The position numbers were made by a program, and so were the translations under genes. From Phycisphaerae bacterium (GTDB lineage Bacteria; Planctomycetota; Phycisphaerae; Phycisphaerales; SM1A02), in NCBI GenBank assembly GCA_016873315.1, contig VGXL01000004.1:1-55154 (forward strand): a stretch of DNA of 55,154 bases, given 5' to 3'. This document shows positions 22,216-30,805 of the stretch, one piece after another. The notes beneath the pieces were generated by a model. It did not search any database and had not been told where the DNA came from. It worked only from the letters and a program-made list of their open reading frames with translations. The stretch's first letter is position 1. Every line of letters starts with the position of its first letter.

Positions 22216-23154
22216 TCATGACCAGTCCGGAGCGCTCAGATCGACCGCGCCGACAAGGTCCATGATCGACGACGCGCCTTGGCGCTGGACCCAGGCGTCG
22301 AGGTCGCGCGCGACCGTTGCGGGACCGGCCGGGTCGACGAAGAGCGAGGTTCCCATGCCCACCAGCGTGGCGCCGGCAAGCACGAGTTCCGCCGCATCGC
22401 GCCAATCCATCACGCCGCCGAGACCGATGATGGGCTTCCCCGCGTCGCGGGCGACCTGCGTATAGACCTCATGCACCATGCGCACGGCGATCGGATGGAT
22501 CGCTGGTCCACTGAGCCCGCCTTTGCCGCGCGAGAGTCGCGTGCGGCGCGTCTCGGGATCGATCGCCATGGCCTGAACGGTGTTGATGAGCGTCAGCGCA
22601 TCGGCGCCGCCGTCGATCGCACCCCGCGCGAGCCCGACGATATCGCCCGTGTTCGGCGTGAGTTTGACGATCAGCGGTTTGGTGGTGACCGACCGAAGCG
22701 TCGAAGTCAGACCGCGCAGGAGGTCGGGCGAGTCGCTGAACTGCAGCCCCGTCGAGGTATTCGGGCAGCTGGCGTTGATCTCGATCGCCGCCATGTCGTC
22801 GAGTGCGTCGAAGGCACGCACGACCGCGGCGTAGTCCTCGATCGAATGCCCCGCAACGCTGCCGATGATTCTGCACGGCACGCGGGATGCACGGCACCAC
22901 TTCTCACGGACGAACGCCTCGACACCAACGTTGGCGAGTCCGATCGCGTTGAGCATGCCGCCCTTGGCGCCGATGATCCGCCAAGGCTTGTTGCCCTCGC
23001 GCGGCTCTGGCGTGATGCTCTTGGTCGTGATGGCACCAAGCGAACGCAGGTCCAGCGCATCGGCGAGCTCATCGAGGTAGCCACATGTGCCCGCTGCGGC
23101 CACAAGCGGCGAGCCGAAGTCGATGCCCAGAGCGTGCACGCGCAGGCGATGCAT
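22216..23154 (-). CDS. pyrD: Dihydroorotate dehydrogenase (class 1)
   Basis: This enzyme oxidises dihydroorotate to orotate in pyrimidine synthesis. The 312-residue protein has the FMN barrel pattern: GSPLVAAAGTCGY, GAITTKSITPEPREGN, the catalytic-loop segment AIEINASCPNT (class 1 enzymes use a Cys base, here in NASCPNTSTG), LIVKLTPNTGDI, ALTLINTVQAM, LSGPAIHPIAVRMV, and PIIGLGGVMDWRDA with MGTSLFVDP for phosphate binding. The Cys base and the RLSRGKGGLSGPAI segment place it in class 1B. The partner PyrK is not adjacent. The start is supported by TAGAAC 7 nt upstream. It is divergent from the TPR-YggX gene with 41 bp between starts. Confidence 0.94.
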   Translation of the reverse strand: MHRLRVHALGIDFGSPLVAAAGTCGYLDELADALDLRSLGAITTKSITPEPREGNKPWRIIGAKGGMLNAIGLANVGVEAFVREKWCRASRVPCRIIGSVAGHSIEDYAAVVRAFDALDDMAAIEINASCPNTSTGLQFSDSPDLLRGLTSTLRSVTTKPLIVKLTPNTGDIVGLARGAIDGGADALTLINTVQAMAIDPETRRTRLSRGKGGLSGPAIHPIAVRMVHEVYTQVARDAGKPIIGLGGVMDWRDAAELVLAGATLVGMGTSLFVDPAGPATVARDLDAWVQRQGASSIMDLVGAVDLSAPDWS

Positions 23155-23161
23155 GGACGGA

Positions 23162-23167
23162 GTTCTA
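23162..23167 (-). promoter_or_regulatory. Putative -10 element of pyrD
   Basis: The minus strand reads TAGAAC, 7 nt before the pyrD ATG. It is the same hexamer as at apt, another nucleotide-metabolism gene. Confidence 0.4.
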
Positions 23168-23183
23168 GCAGGTGCCGCACGGC

Positions 23184-23189
23184 TATGCT
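23184..23189 (+). promoter_or_regulatory. Putative -10 element of the TPR-YggX gene
   Basis: TATGCT ends 6 nt before the ATG at 23196. The divergent pyrD and TPR-YggX promoters are about 16 bp apart. Confidence 0.45.
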
Positions 23190-23195
23190 TCGGGC

Positions 23196-23840
23196 ATGAG
23201 CACGCCCGACCGCATCGCGCAGTTCGAGAAGATGGCCTCGGCCGACCCGAGCAACGAGATGGCTCACTTCAGCCTGGGCAACGCGTACCTGCAGGTCGGC
23301 CGCTATGCCGAGAGCGCGCAGAGCCTGGAGCGGTGCATCGCGATCAATCCTGAGATGAGCAAGGCCTATCAACTCTGCGGTCAGGCGATGATCGGTGCCG
23401 GCTGGGAAGACAAGGCCGTGGCTGTGCTGATGACTGGCTACGACGTCGCCGCGCGCAAAGGCGACCGACTGCCGCAGGAAGCGATCGCCGGGATGCTTCG
23501 CTCGATCGGCCGCGAACCGCCGAAGGTCGAACGACCGGTCGATGCAGCGGCGGAAGCACTGCGCGCCAGTGGAGTCTTTGTGTGCGGCCGCACCGGGCGC
23601 CCTGGATCCAAGCTCCCGTCGCCGCCTTTCCGTGGGCCCGTCGGACAGTGGATCTTCGACCATGTCAGCGCTGAAACATGGCGCGACTGGATCGGCCAAG
23701 GCACGAAGGTCATCAATGAACTTCGCCTGGACTTCAGCCGCGACAGCGATCAGGAGATCTACGACCGCCACATGCGGGAGTACCTGGGCATCGACGATGA
23801 ACTGCTCGCGCAGTTGCGCACAACTGCCACGAAAGTTTGA
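23196..23840 (+). CDS. TPR domain fused to an Fe(II)-trafficking (YggX-like) domain
   Basis: In this 214-residue protein, residues 20-95 read as tetratricopeptide repeats (NEMAHFSLGNAYLQVGRYAE, then SAQSLERCIAINPEMSKAYQ). Residues about 126-200 match YggX end to end: FVCGRTG aligns with the N-terminal I.C......L, then PPFRGPVGQWIFDHVSAETW (YggX P..GELGKRIY..IS..AW), RDWIGQGTKVINELRL (W...QT.LINE..L) and YDRHMREYLG (E.EM..FLF). Cys130 sits at the position of the YggX redox Cys. YggX proteins are about 90 residues, act alone and protect Fe-S clusters from oxidative damage. Here the domain is joined to a protein-binding module. I use the ATG with TATGCT 6 nt upstream. Confidence 0.8.
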   Translation: MSTPDRIAQFEKMASADPSNEMAHFSLGNAYLQVGRYAESAQSLERCIAINPEMSKAYQLCGQAMIGAGWEDKAVAVLMTGYDVAARKGDRLPQEAIAGMLRSIGREPPKVERPVDAAAEALRASGVFVCGRTGRPGSKLPSPPFRGPVGQWIFDHVSAETWRDWIGQGTKVINELRLDFSRDSDQEIYDRHMREYLGIDDELLAQLRTTATKV

Positions 23841-23843
23841 TCG

Positions 23844-23879
23844 GCGCCCACCGGCGCACACGGCAGCGTCACGCGACGC
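23844..23879. terminator. Paired GC-rich stem-loops between convergent genes
   Basis: GCGCC/GGCGC around CACC (23844-23857) and GCGTC/GACGC around ACGC (23866-23879) form two adjacent short hairpins right after the TPR-YggX stop. They lie before the end of the convergent BatA-like gene. Confidence 0.35.
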
Positions 23880-23902
23880 GTGTTGACTGAGGGCTCAGCG
23901 CG

Positions 23903-25876
23903 TCACACCTTGCGAAGATAGACGAGCCACTCGAGCGTCAACACCGCGAGCGCGGCCAACATGAGCCACGGCCAGAGCGCGCTTCGGCCTGACTCGCCGC
24001 CCTGCACACCACGAACGGTCTCGAGTCCAAGCGAGAGCGACTCGAGCGTGCCGATGCGGCCTTCGCGCGGGTCCTGCAACGCCACGGCGATCGGGCGGGT
24101 TCGCTCCTCGCTCCCCTCGTGCCAGCGCGCCGTCCAAACTCCGGCTTGGCGCAGCGGCCCGATGACGACTTGTGCGGGATCGGTGACGGTGATCTCGTGC
24201 GAGCCAGACGCCGGTGAGGTGAGCGTCAATGAGCGCACGCCTGAAGGCAGTCGGATCGGCTGCGTGTCGCCGGGCGCAATCGTGGGCAGTGCGGCTTCGC
24301 GACCGCTCGCGGCAAGAAACTCGATCGCATTCGCCATGAAGTTGACGAAGCCGCGTTGGAACGGCCAGTTGCTGTCGAGCGGATTGAATGCGACGACGAC
24401 CGCCTGACCGCCCGATCGTGCGAGCGTCATGACCAAGGGCCCATCGCTGCCTTCAACGATCGTCTCCACATCGCTCGCGGGCGAGTACGCCACGGCGCGC
24501 GCAACCCCGAGTTCATCCAAGTTCACGAAGCGCAGGAGCGGATGCGCGGCCTGGGATGAGCGCATCGAGACATCGGCCTTCTCGCCGTAGGGATTGAGCC
24601 CCTCGAACGGCGCCGTCCCGCCAAGGACGAGGTACCGAGCCGGCGGGAGCGATGGCGGCGACGCGCCATCGAGCACAACGACATCGAACGCGTCGATCCA
24701 TGCGGGGTTCGCCGCGGTGCGCGTGGTGAACTGATCGAGCGTGACCGCGTCCACGGACTTGACTGGCAGCGCCTGCACCAGGCCGCGCGTGATCGACGAT
24801 CCACCCACAAGCAGGACGCGAGCGGCAGCCGAGGGTGCCGCCACCATCGCCATGCGATTGTCCGCAGGTTGGTCGTCGGACGCGACGAGCCGCACCTCCA
24901 CGATCCCGTCGGGCTTCACGGTGACCGACGGGAACGACACGCGCACCTCGCCGGGGAGCCATGTCTTGCGCGAGGGATCCTCGCCCGCTGCTGGTACGTC
25001 GATCCCATTGGGCAACACTGCACGCAGCGTGCCATCAACCCAGAGTTCGACATCCGAGTGCAGCGGTGCCTCGTCCCAATTCATGATGCGCGCGAAGACA
25101 GCGACTTCATCTGGGTTGCCAGCGAGCCGCGAAACGCCGGCGCCCGCAACGCCGGCGTTGCGCGCGGTGGACGAGCCCATCGGATGAAAACGAAGGTGCT
25201 CGCCAGGCTTGATGACGCACCGCTCCAGATCGGCGATCCGACCATCGGACCAGAGTTCGAGCGTGACGCCGCTCTCCTGCGGCGCACCCTGCTTGTCGGG
25301 ATTGGGCACCTCCATGAAGGAGCGCGCAACATCGAGCGCATCGACGAGTGTGGTCGTTTCGTCGGTGGCTTCGATGGCATCAATCGCATCGTGCGCGCGC
25401 GCCGCCAGCGTGCTGAAGGGGCTCAGGACGGTCGCCTCGCGGGCGAGCGCGACGACCATGACTTCAGGCGCTTGCGAGAAGAGCCCAGTGCCGAAGAGCG
25501 CGCTGACGCGGTCGTGCGCTTCGCGCTTGGCTTGCTCGAGACGCGAACGACCATCCGCGTCTTTCACACCCATGCTGGCGCTGCGGTCGATGAGCAGCAC
25601 CACGCGCCCGCTCTCGACGAGGCCCAAGTCTGCCTGGGGCTGCGCGAGCGCGAGCGCAAGCAGCGCGATGGCCAGCGCCTGCAAGACGAGCAGCCACGAC
25701 ATGCGCATGCGCTGGAACAAGCTGTTCGCGCGAAGGTCTTCGACCTGGCGGGTCCAGAGCAGCGTGCTCGCGACGGTTCGCTTGGGCCGACGCAGACGCA
25801 GGATGTACAGCGCAAGCAGCGGCGGCAGCGTGGCAGCCGCCAAGATGATGCCAGCCAGCGGTGCAAGCCACATCAT
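23903..25876 (-). CDS. BatA/vWA-domain membrane protein
   Basis: This 657-residue protein starts with the BatA N-terminal membrane module: helix 1 LAGIILAAATLPPLLALYIL, the basic LRLRRPKRTVAS loop, then SWLLVLQALAIALLALALAQ. A vWA domain follows with an intact metal site (VVLLIDRSASMGVK, the DxSxS MIDAS). The middle and C-terminal parts are beta-rich periplasmic domains (residues about 240-600). A final helix (ALWPWLMLAALAVLTLEWLV) returns to the membrane. Such proteins occur in aerotolerance (bat) operons with MoxR ATPases. It is the last of seven coupled genes; its ATG overlaps the DUF58 stop by 4 nt. Confidence 0.87.
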   Translation of the reverse strand: MMWLAPLAGIILAAATLPPLLALYILRLRRPKRTVASTLLWTRQVEDLRANSLFQRMRMSWLLVLQALAIALLALALAQPQADLGLVESGRVVLLIDRSASMGVKDADGRSRLEQAKREAHDRVSALFGTGLFSQAPEVMVVALAREATVLSPFSTLAARAHDAIDAIEATDETTTLVDALDVARSFMEVPNPDKQGAPQESGVTLELWSDGRIADLERCVIKPGEHLRFHPMGSSTARNAGVAGAGVSRLAGNPDEVAVFARIMNWDEAPLHSDVELWVDGTLRAVLPNGIDVPAAGEDPSRKTWLPGEVRVSFPSVTVKPDGIVEVRLVASDDQPADNRMAMVAAPSAAARVLLVGGSSITRGLVQALPVKSVDAVTLDQFTTRTAANPAWIDAFDVVVLDGASPPSLPPARYLVLGGTAPFEGLNPYGEKADVSMRSSQAAHPLLRFVNLDELGVARAVAYSPASDVETIVEGSDGPLVMTLARSGGQAVVVAFNPLDSNWPFQRGFVNFMANAIEFLAASGREAALPTIAPGDTQPIRLPSGVRSLTLTSPASGSHEITVTDPAQVVIGPLRQAGVWTARWHEGSEERTRPIAVALQDPREGRIGTLESLSLGLETVRGVQGGESGRSALWPWLMLAALAVLTLEWLVYLRKV

Positions 25877-26790
25877 CGCAGGAGACCTCGCTTGCGCAGG
25901 TAGTCCAGCAACAATTCGTCGACGGGCGTGGTCGTGGGAACCGGAACATGAACGATGCCGCGGCGGACGCAGAAATCACGCAGCGCGGTGGCGTGCGCAA
26001 CCGTCGCTTGGCTGTACGCCTCGAGAGCTTTCGACGTGATCGTCATTTCGACCTCGGCGCCATCCTCGCTGTCGATGAATCGAAGATCGCCAGTCAGACC
26101 GTGCATCCCCGGATCGCGCTCCTCCGGAGCGATGAGCTGCAGCGCGTAGACATCGAAGCCGCGGCCAGCGACGGAACGAAGCCCCTTCTCGGCACCGTCG
26201 CGGAAGAGAAAGTCACTCAAGACGATCATGACGCCGCGTCCTTGTCGCCCGAGCGCGATCGTGCGCATGGCGTCATCGAAGCCAGCGTCCCCAGCTGCCT
26301 TGCGATCGAGCAGCCACTGTCCAAGATCGCGTGTTCGGCGGCGTCCGCGCAGACCAGTGAGCGGATGGAAACCGTCGCCACCAAAGCCAAACGCTGAGAC
26401 CCGGTTGTGATTGACCAGCCCGACATAGCCGAGCGCCATCGCCACGCGGCGCGCGTAGTCGAATTTGTTGGGTGTGCCCCAATCCATGCTGCCGGAACAA
26501 TCGATCGCGAGCACCAGACTCAGATCTTCTTCCTCGAGGAAGAGCTTCAGGAAGAGTCGATCGAGTCGGCCGTAGATGTTCCAGTCGACGAATCGAAGGT
26601 CATCGCCTGCGACATAGGGCCGGAAGTCGGCGAACTCCACGCTCTGGCCGCGGCGTCGGCTGCGTCGCTCGCCCTGCACCTTGCCTTGGAAGATCTTGCG
26701 ACTCGTCACATCGAGCGCGTCAAGCCGGGTCATGAGCGGTCCATCGATGAGTTGATCGACGGTTCGTGGTGCGTCGGCGCGCTCGCTCAT
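25873..26790 (-). CDS. DUF58 domain protein
   Basis: This 305-residue cytoplasmic protein has the DUF58 hallmarks: GERRSRRRGQSVEFADFRPY and VAGDDLRFVDWNIYGRLDRL (family consensus G.H.S...G.S.EF...R.Y..GD..R.IDW...AR...L), then LFLEEEDLSLVLAIDCSGSM, an intact MIDAS-type DxSxS. The C-terminal part carries DVYALQLIAPEERDPG. DUF58 proteins are regular partners of MoxR AAA ATPases and are thought to help fold or load cofactors into client proteins. Start and stop overlap neighbours by 4 nt. Confidence 0.92.
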   Translation of the reverse strand: MSERADAPRTVDQLIDGPLMTRLDALDVTSRKIFQGKVQGERRSRRRGQSVEFADFRPYVAGDDLRFVDWNIYGRLDRLFLKLFLEEEDLSLVLAIDCSGSMDWGTPNKFDYARRVAMALGYVGLVNHNRVSAFGFGGDGFHPLTGLRGRRRTRDLGQWLLDRKAAGDAGFDDAMRTIALGRQGRGVMIVLSDFLFRDGAEKGLRSVAGRGFDVYALQLIAPEERDPGMHGLTGDLRFIDSEDGAEVEMTITSKALEAYSQATVAHATALRDFCVRRGIVHVPVPTTTPVDELLLDYLRKRGLLR

Positions 26791-27824
26791 GGCACCACCT
26801 CAGTCGGCGTGCGCGCGATGACATGCTCGATGATGCGATCGACGGGGGTCGCATCCGCTTCGGCCTCAAAGCTGGGCACGACGCGGTGCCGCAGCGCGGC
26901 AGGCGCCATGGCCCGAAGGTCATCGCAGCTCACGGCGAAACGACCATCGAGGAGCGCGCGCACCTTCGCGCACGACACGAGTGCTTGCGCCGCTCGCGGG
27001 CTCGCACCGAACGCGATCCATCGGTCGGTCCATCGGTCGCTGAAGGCCCCGTGCGGATGCGTGCCGAGCACCAAGCGAATCGCGTAGTCCTGAACATGCG
27101 GCGCCATCGCGACCTGCCGCGCAAGTCGTTGCGCAGCACGAATCGCACGCGCATCGAGCAGTTGGCGCGCCTGGGGCGCTTGTCCCGTGGTCGTGCGGGA
27201 AAGAACCTCGTTCAGCGTTGCTTGGTCCACCGTTGGCACGCGCACCTTGAGCAGGAAGCGGTCGAGTTGGGCCTCGGGCAGCGGGTACGTGCCCTCTTGT
27301 TCAATCGGATTCTGCGTGGCGAGTACGAAGAACGGTCGCTCGAGCTGCATCGTCTGGCCGCCGACAGTCACGCTGCGCTCCTGCATCGCTTCGAGCAGCG
27401 CGCTCTGCGCCTTGGGCGTGGCGCGGTTGATCTCGTCAGCGAGCACGACCTGCGCAAAGATCGGACCAGCGCGGAACTGGATCTCGCGGTTGCCGCTCGC
27501 GGCGTCCTCGACCACGACCTGCGTGCCCGTGATGTCAGCGGGCATCAGATCCGGCGTGAACTGGATGCGCGAGAAGCGAAGCCCAAGGATCTGCCCCAGC
27601 GTTCGCACGAGCAGAGTCTTGCCCAAACCCGGCACGCCCTCGAGCAGGATGTGACCATCCGCCAGAAGCGCCACCAGGCACTCGTCGACCACGGCCTGCT
27701 GACCGACGAGCACACGCCCCACTTCGTGTCGCATTGCGACCACCGTGCGACCGAAGGCTTCAGCCGCCGAGCGCACCTCGTCGATCGTCGAGGGTGCATC
27801 GGGAACGGGCTCAAGCCGCGTCAC
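26787..27824 (-). CDS. MoxR-family AAA+ ATPase
   Basis: This 345-residue AAA+ chaperone shows Walker A GVPGLGKT, the MoxR-specific RIQFTPDLMPADITGTQV block, Walker B VVLADEINRA followed by TPKAQSALLEAMQER, sensor 1 VLATQNPIEQEGTYPLPEAQ and the arginine-finger region LDRFLLKVRV. The C-terminal lid runs from about 230 to 345. MoxR ATPases work with vWA proteins to mature metal- or cofactor-containing complexes. I start it at a GTG at 27824, which overlaps the upstream stop by 4 nt (GTGA); the frame stays open 94 codons further, but that part lies inside the previous gene and has no MoxR similarity. Confidence 0.93.
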   Translation of the reverse strand: MTRLEPVPDAPSTIDEVRSAAEAFGRTVVAMRHEVGRVLVGQQAVVDECLVALLADGHILLEGVPGLGKTLLVRTLGQILGLRFSRIQFTPDLMPADITGTQVVVEDAASGNREIQFRAGPIFAQVVLADEINRATPKAQSALLEAMQERSVTVGGQTMQLERPFFVLATQNPIEQEGTYPLPEAQLDRFLLKVRVPTVDQATLNEVLSRTTTGQAPQARQLLDARAIRAAQRLARQVAMAPHVQDYAIRLVLGTHPHGAFSDRWTDRWIAFGASPRAAQALVSCAKVRALLDGRFAVSCDDLRAMAPAALRHRVVPSFEAEADATPVDRIIEHVIARTPTEVVP

Positions 27825-30805
27825 GATGCGTCCTCCTCGCCGCGCGCGCGGCGCTTGGCTGCCCGCAACCGCGCCAGGCTCGATGCATCCTCGCTCGATG
27901 CGGCATCGTTCGACGCGGCGCCCTTCGATGCGCCACCAGTCGAACCGGCACCCGGCGAGGCGTCGCTCGGCTTGTCCTGCGTGCGGTCCACGATTTCGAC
28001 GGGAGCGCTTGGCGCCGTGCGACGATCGGGTTTCGTGGGTCCGGTCGATGCGGCGGCAGTTGGCTCGCTCCCCGCTTGTCGCGCACCGCTTCGCGCGCGC
28101 TTCCATGCTTCGACCGTTGCGCCGCCGGCCTTGGCCCCCTCGCCCACCGCCATCGCCGCAAGATCGCGCGCCGCTTCGCGGTCAAGCGAGATCCTTCGCG
28201 CCGCAACATCGATGATGAGGAGCGCTGCGGCGAGGATCGCCAACACATTCCAGATTCGCTTGGCGGCCTCGGGCATCGAGAGCCCGCTGCGATCGAAGAA
28301 GTCGGTCGTCGCCGCATCCTTCAAGGCGATCATGCGACCACCGCTGAGGTCGGCGATGCGCCGCAAGAGCGCCGAGTCATCGCGCGTGGCGGCGAGTTCG
28401 CGCGGGTACGGAACGCTGACGACCGATCGCGCTGACCGCTCGATGCCCATGCCATCCTGCGCCGAGATGCTCGCCAAGTACGCGCCCTGCTCACGCGCGT
28501 CGAAGTTCGCCACATACTGACCCGGCGCCGTCTGCTGCAGATCAAGCACGACGACGCTGCCATCGGGCCGCATCAAGGTCGCCGAACTGCGCAGGAAGTC
28601 GCGAGGCTCGCCCGCGGCCGTGAACGCCGACACCTGCACGCGCCCCACATCGCCATCGACCGAGGTGGACACCAGCAGATCCTGCGCGGTCGGCGGGCGC
28701 ATCATCCATCGCAACGCGCGGGTCCAGAACGGTTGGTAGCCGCTCCATGTCGCCCACGATCGGCCCCATCGGCCGCCCAGGTCGCTCGTGAAGGCCATCG
28801 ACTTGCCGAGTCCGTAGTTCCAGTACGCCACGAGCGGATCGCGCGACTCGGTCGTTGGCAGCACCGCCGGCACCTGGGCAAGTCCATCGCGCGGCACGGT
28901 CACGACCCAACCGTTGACCTGCGGCAGGCTCGTTGTTCCATCCATCGGTCCGCCCGTCGACTGCTCCACAACTGGTCGCACGGTCTGCTCCAAGATCAGC
29001 GTGCGGCTGACGAGCGTGGCTTCCTTCGTGAAGATTTTCGGAAGCAGATTCGGATTCTGAACATTGTAGAAGGTGCCGCCAGTCTGCTCGGCAACGGCGC
29101 GCATGTTCTGCAAGTCGATGCTCGTCCCGTGACCGCCCACCATGATCGTGGTGACGGTGATCTTCAGGCGCTTGAGTTCGTCCAAGTCGCTCTGCGTGGG
29201 CGGACTCGGATCGCCATCCGAAATGATGATGATGTGCTTCTGTCCGGCGTTCGCCTTGGCGAGCCCTTCCTTTGCCAAACTCAGGCTCGCCTTGAAGTCG
29301 GGCATGTCGCCCACCACCATGCGCTTGATCGCCGCGCGAATGCCAGACTTGTCGCCGACGGGCTGCAGTTCATGCGCCCACGAAGCGAGTTTGCCGCTCC
29401 GACCGCCCCAGTCAAAGGTCACGATCCCCGCAAGGTCGAGTCTGCTCAACGCATCGACCGCCGCGTCAGCCACCTTCTCGCCCCAGTAGTTGCCGGCTGC
29501 CATCTCGCACGAGTGCATGATGAGCACGAGCGCACCCTTGGGGAGTTGGCGCGTCGCCGGCGGTTCGAGCCGTACGGCGAAGGCCTTCGAGGACTCGCTG
29601 CCTTGCCAACCGCCTGCGCCGAACGCTCGGTCGCCACCGGTGACCAGCAGTCCACCGCCGAGGTCGTGCACATACGAGTGCAACAACTGATCGGTCTCGT
29701 TCGTGATCTCAAAGCGACCGACATTCGCGAGCACGACCGCATCAGCATCGGCGAGGACCGACACGCCTTCGACATCGAGTTCATCTGGCGTGACGACGAA
29801 CGACGGGATGTCACCTTCGGCCAGTGCCTCGACGAGCGGCTTCGATTCATCGCCGCCAGCGCTTCCGTCCACGATCACGACCTTTGCCCCCGAACTGACG
29901 AGCACCATCGCCGCGCCGCGGTTGTTCTCGGCAATCGCGTCGGAAGCAGGATCATCGGGCGTGTAGACGAGTTCGTACCGTCGAGACTGACGCCCAACGA
30001 CGACCATGGGAAATGTCAGCGCGTTCACGCCAGCCTTCAGATCAACCGCGAGACCACTGCCGGGTGCCGATGGATCCAAGTCGACCGGCTCGCCATTTTC
30101 GCGCAGCGTCACGACGCCGCGATTGGGTCCCATGCTGCGGATCGACGCGCGCAGATCAATCGTCTGGCCCTCGCGAGCGGTGCTCGGCGCGCGCAGCGAC
30201 TCGACCATTACCTCGCTCGCGTGGCTGAAGGGCAGCGCGACCACGTCGATCGGAATGCCGTTGGCACGAGCAGCCTCGGCCGCTTCGAGCGCGTTGCCGC
30301 TCGTCTGATTGCCATCAGAAATCAGCAGCAGTCGGCTCGCCGTGTCCGGCGGAAGCATCGCCATGCCGCGCCGCAGGGCAGCCTCGATCCCAGTCGCCAT
30401 CCGATCGCCGCCATGTTGCGACACATCCAAGCTCGCATCGCTCTCAGCGATCGCGCGGACCTCCGGGCGACTGGCAAAGGTGATCAATCCCACGCGGTCG
30501 GCCGCTTCGCGCTTGCTCGCCACCAAGCCGTCAACCAGCTTCTGCGCCTGCTGCTGCATCGACTGCGGCACCGATCGGCTCGCGTCGGAAACCACCATCA
30601 CGGTCAGTCCCTCGCCCTTGCGCACCAGACTCGGCTGCGCGAGCGCGAGTGCGAGCATGGTGACGAGCAGGCCCCGCAGCACCATCGTCGCGATCGTCTT
30701 GCCAACACCCACGACGCCGCGACGGCGCCATGCCATCCAGCAGAGCACCGGAACCAGCACGAGCAGCGCCAGTGCCAGCGGTCGTTCAACATCGATCGAC
30801 GGCAT
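27821..30805 (-). CDS. Large membrane protein with two vWA-like domains and a GATase1-like domain
   Basis: This 994-residue protein begins with two membrane helices (residues about 8-25 and 38-57). A first vWA domain has an intact MIDAS (VVSDASRSVPQ, Asp74). A beta-rich section follows, then a glutamine-amidotransferase-like block (SYVHDLGGGLLVTGGDRAFG). A second vWA-like domain sits inside it, in which the metal motif is replaced by IMHSCEMAAGNYWGEKV. Near residue 860-885 a third helix (RIWNVLAILAAALLIIDVAA) precedes a Ser/Ala/Arg-rich cytoplasmic tail. This architecture is common in planctomycete Bat operons. The ATG shares one base with the upstream stop (TGATG); a GTG one codon earlier gives a 4-nt overlap and is also possible. 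Confidence 0.88.
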   Translation of the reverse strand: MPSIDVERPLALALLVLVPVLCWMAWRRRGVVGVGKTIATMVLRGLLVTMLALALAQPSLVRKGEGLTVMVVSDASRSVPQSMQQQAQKLVDGLVASKREAADRVGLITFASRPEVRAIAESDASLDVSQHGGDRMATGIEAALRRGMAMLPPDTASRLLLISDGNQTSGNALEAAEAARANGIPIDVVALPFSHASEVMVESLRAPSTAREGQTIDLRASIRSMGPNRGVVTLRENGEPVDLDPSAPGSGLAVDLKAGVNALTFPMVVVGRQSRRYELVYTPDDPASDAIAENNRGAAMVLVSSGAKVVIVDGSAGGDESKPLVEALAEGDIPSFVVTPDELDVEGVSVLADADAVVLANVGRFEITNETDQLLHSYVHDLGGGLLVTGGDRAFGAGGWQGSESSKAFAVRLEPPATRQLPKGALVLIMHSCEMAAGNYWGEKVADAAVDALSRLDLAGIVTFDWGGRSGKLASWAHELQPVGDKSGIRAAIKRMVVGDMPDFKASLSLAKEGLAKANAGQKHIIIISDGDPSPPTQSDLDELKRLKITVTTIMVGGHGTSIDLQNMRAVAEQTGGTFYNVQNPNLLPKIFTKEATLVSRTLILEQTVRPVVEQSTGGPMDGTTSLPQVNGWVVTVPRDGLAQVPAVLPTTESRDPLVAYWNYGLGKSMAFTSDLGGRWGRSWATWSGYQPFWTRALRWMMRPPTAQDLLVSTSVDGDVGRVQVSAFTAAGEPRDFLRSSATLMRPDGSVVVLDLQQTAPGQYVANFDAREQGAYLASISAQDGMGIERSARSVVSVPYPRELAATRDDSALLRRIADLSGGRMIALKDAATTDFFDRSGLSMPEAAKRIWNVLAILAAALLIIDVAARRISLDREAARDLAAMAVGEGAKAGGATVEAWKRARSGARQAGSEPTAAASTGPTKPDRRTAPSAPVEIVDRTQDKPSDASPGAGSTGGASKGAASNDAASSEDASSLARLRAAKRRARGEEDAS

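Follow-up and report, generated by a model that had tools for sequence, protein, structure and literature searches.

Cysteine loss and helix conservation in a TPR-YggX fusion protein of the planctomycete order Phycisphaerales

The fusion gene and its product

The gene considered here occupies 23196..23840 on the + strand of the window, the whole stretch of DNA that was analysed (55,154 nucleotides of contig VGXL01000004.1 from a Phycisphaerae bacterium, GCA_016873315.1). Based on the ORF call, profile matches and an AlphaFold2 model, it encodes a protein of 214 aa that joins N-terminal tetratricopeptide repeats (TPR) to a C-terminal YggX domain. The frame runs from an ATG at 23196 to a stop codon at 23838-23840; an in-frame GTG lies upstream at 23172, but translation of the relatives is possible from the site corresponding to 23196. 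As the first-pass annotation had stated, the gene is divergent from pyrD, a dihydroorotate dehydrogenase gene on the - strand (DHO_dh, 22216..23154; PF01180, E 1.4e-64) that is given here as context and stands outside the proposed function. The two start codons are separated by a gap of 41 bp (23155..23195). The promoters that the same annotation had placed about 16 bp apart are unsupported, since a consensus scan of 23050-24000 gave no sigma-70-type promoter on either strand. According to Pfam, the neighbours of the fusion gene in the window are DHO_dh, Zincin_1 and BatA/VWA genes; mutY is absent beside it, and whereas the window is contig C4, the two HhH-GPD genes of this genome are on C62 and C9. 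A convergent run at 23903-28106, ending 62 bp after the fusion gene, contains BatA/VWA together with DUF58-like and MoxR-like genes.

The N-terminal part of the protein consists of three TPR helical hairpins (residues 3-103; 23202..23504, + strand). Four TPR profiles match above their cut-offs, all within residues 23-79, namely TPR_2 (29.9 bits, cut-off 27), TPR_19 (30 bits, cut-off 25), TPR_8 (27.5 bits, cut-off 25.7) and TPR_11 (26.9 bits, cut-off 26.8), and the model has six helices there, in agreement with the original call. When residues 1-107 were compared with TPR structures by VIA-align, Z reached 16.2, with an rmsd of 1.9 over 107 residues. Next comes a variable linker (residues 104-126; 23505..23573, + strand), recognized from the alignment and the model, which has a predicted helix at 114-124 and a mean majority share of 0.41 in the 94 order rows described below, lower than that of either domain.

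The YggX (Iron_traffic) domain covers residues about 128-198 (23577..23789, + strand). A profile search with PF04362 matched residues 129-199 (E 2.8e-14, 53.1 bits, cut-off 27), so that the stretch for which the YggX assignment had been made, residues 126-200, does carry a significant match. The C-terminal 90 residues also match the YggX entries 2mzy (E 5.2e-9), 1t07, 1yhd and 1xs8 of the PDB. On NF003817, the NCBIfam equivalog for YggX (oxidative damage protection protein), the fusion scores 54.1 bits, below the cut-off of 74 bits. The AlphaFold2 model, built from 81 sequences, has a mean pLDDT of 94.6 and a pTM of 0.76; its YggX part contains helices at 148-156, 159-176, 183-197 and 201-213 and, by Foldseek, resembles the YggX of P. 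aeruginosa (1t07) with a TM-score of 0.82 on the target, E 2.9e-3 and 28% identity over 75 columns. Cys130 (codon at 23583..23585, + strand) lies over a Cys of 2mzy and corresponds, by the alignments, to the N-terminal Cys of YggX, as had been proposed, as well as to the first of the four Cys in the relatives treated below. Going by the title of a cited paper, Cys-7 of the Salmonella protein is reportedly essential. The most conserved stretch of the domain is GTKVINELRLD (residues 169-179; 23700..23732, + strand); the proposed LINE-type motif reads KVINE here and not a literal LINE. Overall, the gene is confirmed as a true TPR-YggX fusion.

Distribution and origin of the fusion

Within the order to which the window belongs (GTDB Phycisphaerales, hereafter the order), PF04362 was found in 158 of the 161 genomes drawn, and in 141 of the 143 that are of good quality. 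A long N-terminal part is present in all 94 order proteins read, which come from 93 genomes (G515 having two) and comprise 31 rows from a draw across the phylum and 63 further loci. In the phylum draw, 47 of 392 genomes had PF04362, 31 of these being from the order, and no order genome without a match appears among the first rows listed, ranked by kinship. One non-order genome (G065), whose match lies in a 1046-aa frame and at 22.3 bits misses the cut-off, is left out of all counts. When the first fusion set was compared with Pfam, PF04362 matched 41 of 41 rows and TPR_2 39 of 41 (E up to 0.001). At the level of the class, a full-length fusion profile exceeded 210 bits in 61 of 120 genomes, i.e. 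in 19 of 19 from the order and in 42 of 101 others. Additionally, a scan of GTDB genome contigs gave 463 pattern matches, 408 of which are relatives; the best 80 of these, ranked against a four-Cys query, are referred to as the named loci. A TPR part is evident by sequence in 78 of the best 80 (the exceptions are L109 and L119), TPR_2 matches 75 of the 81 rows formed by the named loci and the window, and records titled Phycisphaerales, Phycisphaerae and other Planctomycetota predominate, the fusion occurring also in Planctomycetota outside the order. Given the 158 order genomes, the 94 fused rows and the class-wide profile matches, a chance or annotation artefact is rejected. The first-pass annotation was right that the gene is a true fusion, unlike the single-domain YggX of Proteobacteria, but the fusion is order-wide and not peculiar to the window genome. 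In the open-access literature searched, nothing linked YggX with tetratricopeptide or Planctomycetes, although domain-architecture databases may already list the fusion. The gene thus places a familiar domain in a nearly order-wide fusion, which displays a loss series at a presumed metal site.

A separate single-domain YggX alongside the fusion was also considered and rejected, as the window genome has one PF04362 match. In the phylum draw, none of the 47 genomes with a match has more than one; in the order draw, G515 (66% complete) has two, on two short contigs. The order genomes G511, G425 and G488, which have no PF04362 match, do have TPR-type matches to the fusion profile, with no YggX part in the stretches read; both loss and assembly gaps are possible. 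Two stand-alone TPR proteins, L243 and L244, each roughly 100-110 aa long and akin to the TPR half, were seen in order genomes lacking PF04362. In G535, a class-level relative, a 98-aa frame (L240) encodes a four-Cys YggX with no TPR, possibly a fission of the fusion. One planctomycete fusion (L096, genome G526) sits under a record titled Alphaproteobacteria, a title that is probably wrong because its contig number and position coincide with those of G742, a genome of the window's class.

A tree was made of 133 YggX domains, in which families f1, f2 and f4 were represented by part of their rows and Nitrospirota by every other locus, and from which the Cys columns were not removed. In it, the 106 fused domains make up one side of a branch from the 27 unfused ones (support 96). 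Clades of their own are formed by the classical single-domain proteins (three rows, support 99) and by the four-Cys single-domain proteins of planctomycetes (two rows, support 98). This pattern provides moderate evidence that the fusion arose once, moderate because each domain offers about 75 residues and because the Cys columns contributed to the tree. A quick tree of 171 rows (LG+G4, SH-aLRT support only), made without the four Cys columns, places the order in one clade of 103 tips (support 100), which has no four-Cys member, 64 of its tips having one Cys and 39 none. Rows sharing the same last 150 residues were removed from the tree rows, as were L109 and L119, and in the rooting attempt the chosen outgroup did not form one clade. 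Since stand-alone TPR frames matching the TPR half, several of them 105-117 aa long, occur in the same class, it is plausible that such proteins were the source of that half.

Cysteines, helix and gene order among the relatives

Among the best 80 named loci, the YggX domain reads CxxC...CxxC in 62, Cx4C...CxxC in four and has one or two Cys in 14, counts that are biased to four-Cys rows because the ranking used a four-Cys query. The Cx4C first pair, with the second pair kept, is seen in a planctomycete group made up of L070 (titled Gemmataceae), L079, L090 and L126. In the phylum draw, which is less biased, every fused row from beyond the order (10 of 10; families f57, f70 and f76) has CxxC...CxxC, as do the unfused L006 and L007 (f64); the other unfused rows, L002, L003 and L013, are of the classical kind. 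The named loci L109 (Nitrospira sp.) and L119 (Ca. Manganitrophus) likewise combine CxxC...CxxC with no TPR seen. PF04362 occurs in 40 of 100 Nitrospirota genomes: the 39 loci read (L201-L239) all have CxxC...CxxC with no TPR seen, in open frames of 82-135 aa for 38 of them and 226 aa for L238, and the fortieth genome is that of L119, also with four Cys.

The model of L119 has strands at 3-5 and 12-15 and a helix at 35-51, and its Cys 6, 9, 34 and 37 fall as one pair between the two short strands and a second at the start of the long helix. Compared with YggX structures, it gives Z of 9.2-11.4; among treble clefs outside YggX there are weak rows only, an absence that proves nothing. Kaur and Subramanian (2016; PMC4999995) count YggX among the treble clefs, its solved structure being one that lacks zinc. 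The four-Cys relatives carry their Cys where a treble clef has its ligands and may bind metal. By analogy with treble clefs this metal would be zinc, and iron is possible too.

Within the order, three of the four Cys are nearly always gone. The window has C130 and then T133, S158 and T161 at the four places, and so retains one of four presumed ligands in place of two CxxC pairs. Position 130 is Cys in 55 of the 94 order rows, Asp in 35 and deleted in four. By family, Cys130 is kept in 24 of the 28 rows of the window's own family, and in 52 of 57 rows of f1, f2, f5 and f101 together, and Asp is found in 34 of the 37 rows of f3 and f4. The tree requires at least four Cys/Asp changes at this position, and 34 of the 35 Asp rows fall in one clade of f3 and f4, the remaining one being in f2; hence there have been few independent trials. 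All four deletions are in loci of one genus, g270, of f1, the window's family (L166, L171, L172 and L173; genomes of 1.8-2.0 Mb), where the stretch around residue 130 is lost and the INE helix kept; G511, mentioned above, is another genome of that genus. Across the same 94 rows, every position of residues 169-179 is 0.96-1.0 identical, and W165 does not vary. In a draw from the class, nine of 56 matches were read in addition to L240; these nine, from L191-L200, are four order genomes already counted, four four-Cys loci and L191, a fused protein from outside the order with a single Cys in its YggX domain. Because L191 is a one-Cys protein outside the order, Cys loss has probably occurred more than once.

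Turning to gene neighbourhoods, the planctomycete single-domain loci of family f64 have the same-strand order SufS-like, SufU-like, yggX (L006:1459-3227; L007:1453-3229), yggX being last. Their SufS-like genes are class-V aminotransferases (Aminotran_5, E 4.1e-115 and 6.8e-107), and the SufU-like gene matches NifU_N in L007 (E 1.8e-27), whereas in L006 it is split between two tblastn segments (61% and 67% identity). In L109 and L119, the gene immediately downstream of the four-Cys yggX, at most 20 bp away and in the same orientation, is of the HhH-GPD (endonuclease III-like) type (L109:4998-5950; L119:4998-6062; E 2.3e-29 and 2.2e-26, with EndIII_4Fe-2S also in L109), an arrangement that echoes the mutY-yggX adjacency of gammaproteobacteria described in a passage of a 2024 paper (PMC11078426). 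A weaker Nth/MutY-like stretch lies near the single-domain yggX of L003. Among 246 loci, many of which reach only 1-1.5 kb and two of which (L241 and L242) are the window genome's own glycosylase genes, SufU-/SufS-like matches were confined to L006 and L007, and Nth-like matches beside yggX to L109, L119 and, weakly, L003. ORFs near the loci, chosen by length with no gene caller so that some are not genes, were also compared. The 83 ORFs beside 42 single-domain loci have Pro_dh (18) and bifunctional nuclease (12) as the commonest families and one Rrf2 regulator; the same two families are the commonest next to the Nitrospirota loci L201-L239. For the 90 same-strand ORFs near fused genes, GreA (5) and GTP cyclohydrolase I (4) lead among the families listed, and no Fe-S assembly family is among the 25 of 55 families listed.

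No conserved partner gene was found next to the fusion in the loci compared. As a general partner, pyrD was rejected, as it has a match in nine of the best 80 named loci, some of them short, all nine lacking the two Cys pairs. Other neighbours were set aside too, since the clusters that they form are confined to particular lineages: BatA together with the DUF58-like and MoxR-like genes in the kin of the window, and PhosphMutase with FHA in one four-Cys group. Matches to the run that lies next to the fusion gene in the window were obtained in 9-10 of the best 80 named loci.

Interpretation and comparison with known systems

The reading that we prefer, tentatively and at a little under even chances, is that the fusion protein is an adaptor, pairing TPR with a treble clef and working mainly through the INE helix, in which an ancestral metal site has been dismantled within the order. 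On this account, the three-TPR solenoid at the N-terminus would bind a partner protein or peptide, and the YggX-fold treble clef at the C-terminus would offer a second binding surface around the almost invariant helix WxxWxxxGTKVINELRLD. Two Cys pairs holding a metal were probably present in the ancestor of the fusion; in the window's order these would have passed from four Cys to one Cys and then to Asp or loss of the loop, with the helix retained. A metal site in the ancestor that decayed in the order while the helix was kept seems the simplest account of the distribution, and because the site was dismantled without loss of the helix, the preserved function would be independent of thiol-bound iron and the preserved activity should lie in the helix surface. 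A client is hinted at by the gene order of the unfused relatives, which points to the assembly or upkeep of Fe-S proteins. The suf rows and the endonuclease III-like neighbours favour an iron-sulfur role, and they would also fit iron, not zinc, at the four Cys. Two observations limit the adaptor reading: Asp130 could serve as an Fe(II) ligand, and a thiol role may persist in the window's family, 24 of whose 28 rows retain Cys130.

The first-pass annotation instead suggested a domain that traffics Fe(II) or protects Fe-S proteins, with the TPR delivering it to specific client enzymes. TPR targeting of the YggX domain is plausible, and the iron part of the idea draws on membership of PF04362, on the retention of Cys130 at the YggX Cys in 55 of the 94 order rows, on the Suf-like genes that precede yggX in f64 and on what is known of YggX elsewhere: a table in a review gives a Kd of about 1e-6 M for Fe2+ in the Salmonella protein (PMC9268430), and passages of a 2006 and a 2024 paper describe Fe(II) binding in vitro and in vivo (PMC1360075) and a critical N-terminal Cys (PMC11078426), respectively. 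However, the Cys has become Asp or been deleted in 39 of the 94 rows with the helix kept, and the fusion, at 54.1 bits, falls short of the NCBIfam equivalog cut-off of 74 bits. Moreover, the other 244 loci, many of them short, gave no SufU-/SufS-like match, the families listed near fused genes include none for Fe-S assembly and those beside single-domain loci include a lone Rrf2 regulator. The Fe-S connection has some support from two planctomycete and two Nitrospirota single-domain loci, next to SufS/SufU-like and HhH-GPD genes, respectively; as a whole this explanation is doubtful, though well short of negligible. If the client were instead an Fe-S HhH DNA glycosylase (MutY/Nth), bound by the YggX helix while the TPR held another factor, the gammaproteobacterial mutY-yggX adjacency, the HhH-GPD gene directly downstream in both named Nitrospirota loci, the weaker case of L003 and the two HhH-GPD genes of the window genome would find a place; but with no Nth-like match beside yggX in the rest of the 246 loci, and with the window genome's glycosylase genes on other contigs, a glycosylase partner is improbable. 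A thiol redox switch, with Cys130 as an oxidant sensor that would modulate TPR binding in the window's family, is slightly less probable still: it would accord with the retention of Cys130 in f1, f2, f5 and f101, but a lone Cys requires a second thiol or a dimer, and Asp takes its place in 34 of 37 f3/f4 rows, while four f1 rows have lost the loop altogether.

A broader proposal, possible but more likely wrong than right, concerns YggX as a whole. At its root, YggX may have been a four-Cys metal treble clef, with zinc or iron, tied to the assembly and repair of Fe-S proteins; Cys-7-based Fe(II) trafficking would then be a late development in a branch whose metal site had been lost, and the ancestral function would reside in the INE helix. 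If that is true, the loss series of the planctomycete fusion (four Cys, one Cys, Asp, loop deleted) separates metal from function. The name iron-trafficking protein, long attached to YggX, rests largely on one cysteine plus enteric genetics. A protein that is nearly universal in an order, with its Cys replaced or deleted and its helix fixed, makes the question of metal or surface directly testable, with the residues to mutate named.

Compared with YggX (PF04362; 1yhd, 1xs8, 1t07 and 2mzy), the fusion shares the domain sequence, the fold, the N-terminal Cys and the INE helix, but it adds a three-TPR N-terminus, lies below the NCBIfam equivalog cut-off and is without a mutY neighbour; the classical single-domain protein has about 90 aa, whereas the window protein has 214 aa with TPR. 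With the four-Cys single-domain relatives (L109, L119, L201-L239, L006 and L007) it has the same PF04362 domain and INE helix in common; those proteins, however, have two CxxC pairs and no TPR seen, some being in a SUF-type row, while the window has one Cys. With respect to treble-clef zinc fingers, PMC4999995 places YggX in the fold group and the two Cys pairs of the relatives are at the ligand places, yet the window domain has one of the four presumed ligands. Finally, the N-terminal half resembles small TPR proteins, such as PcrH/SycD and the TPR domains of HOP and CHIP, in its three hairpins (Z 14.0-16.2 over 97-110 residues in at least 50 rows), and it differs from them, and from the stand-alone TPR proteins of the same class, in being fused to YggX.
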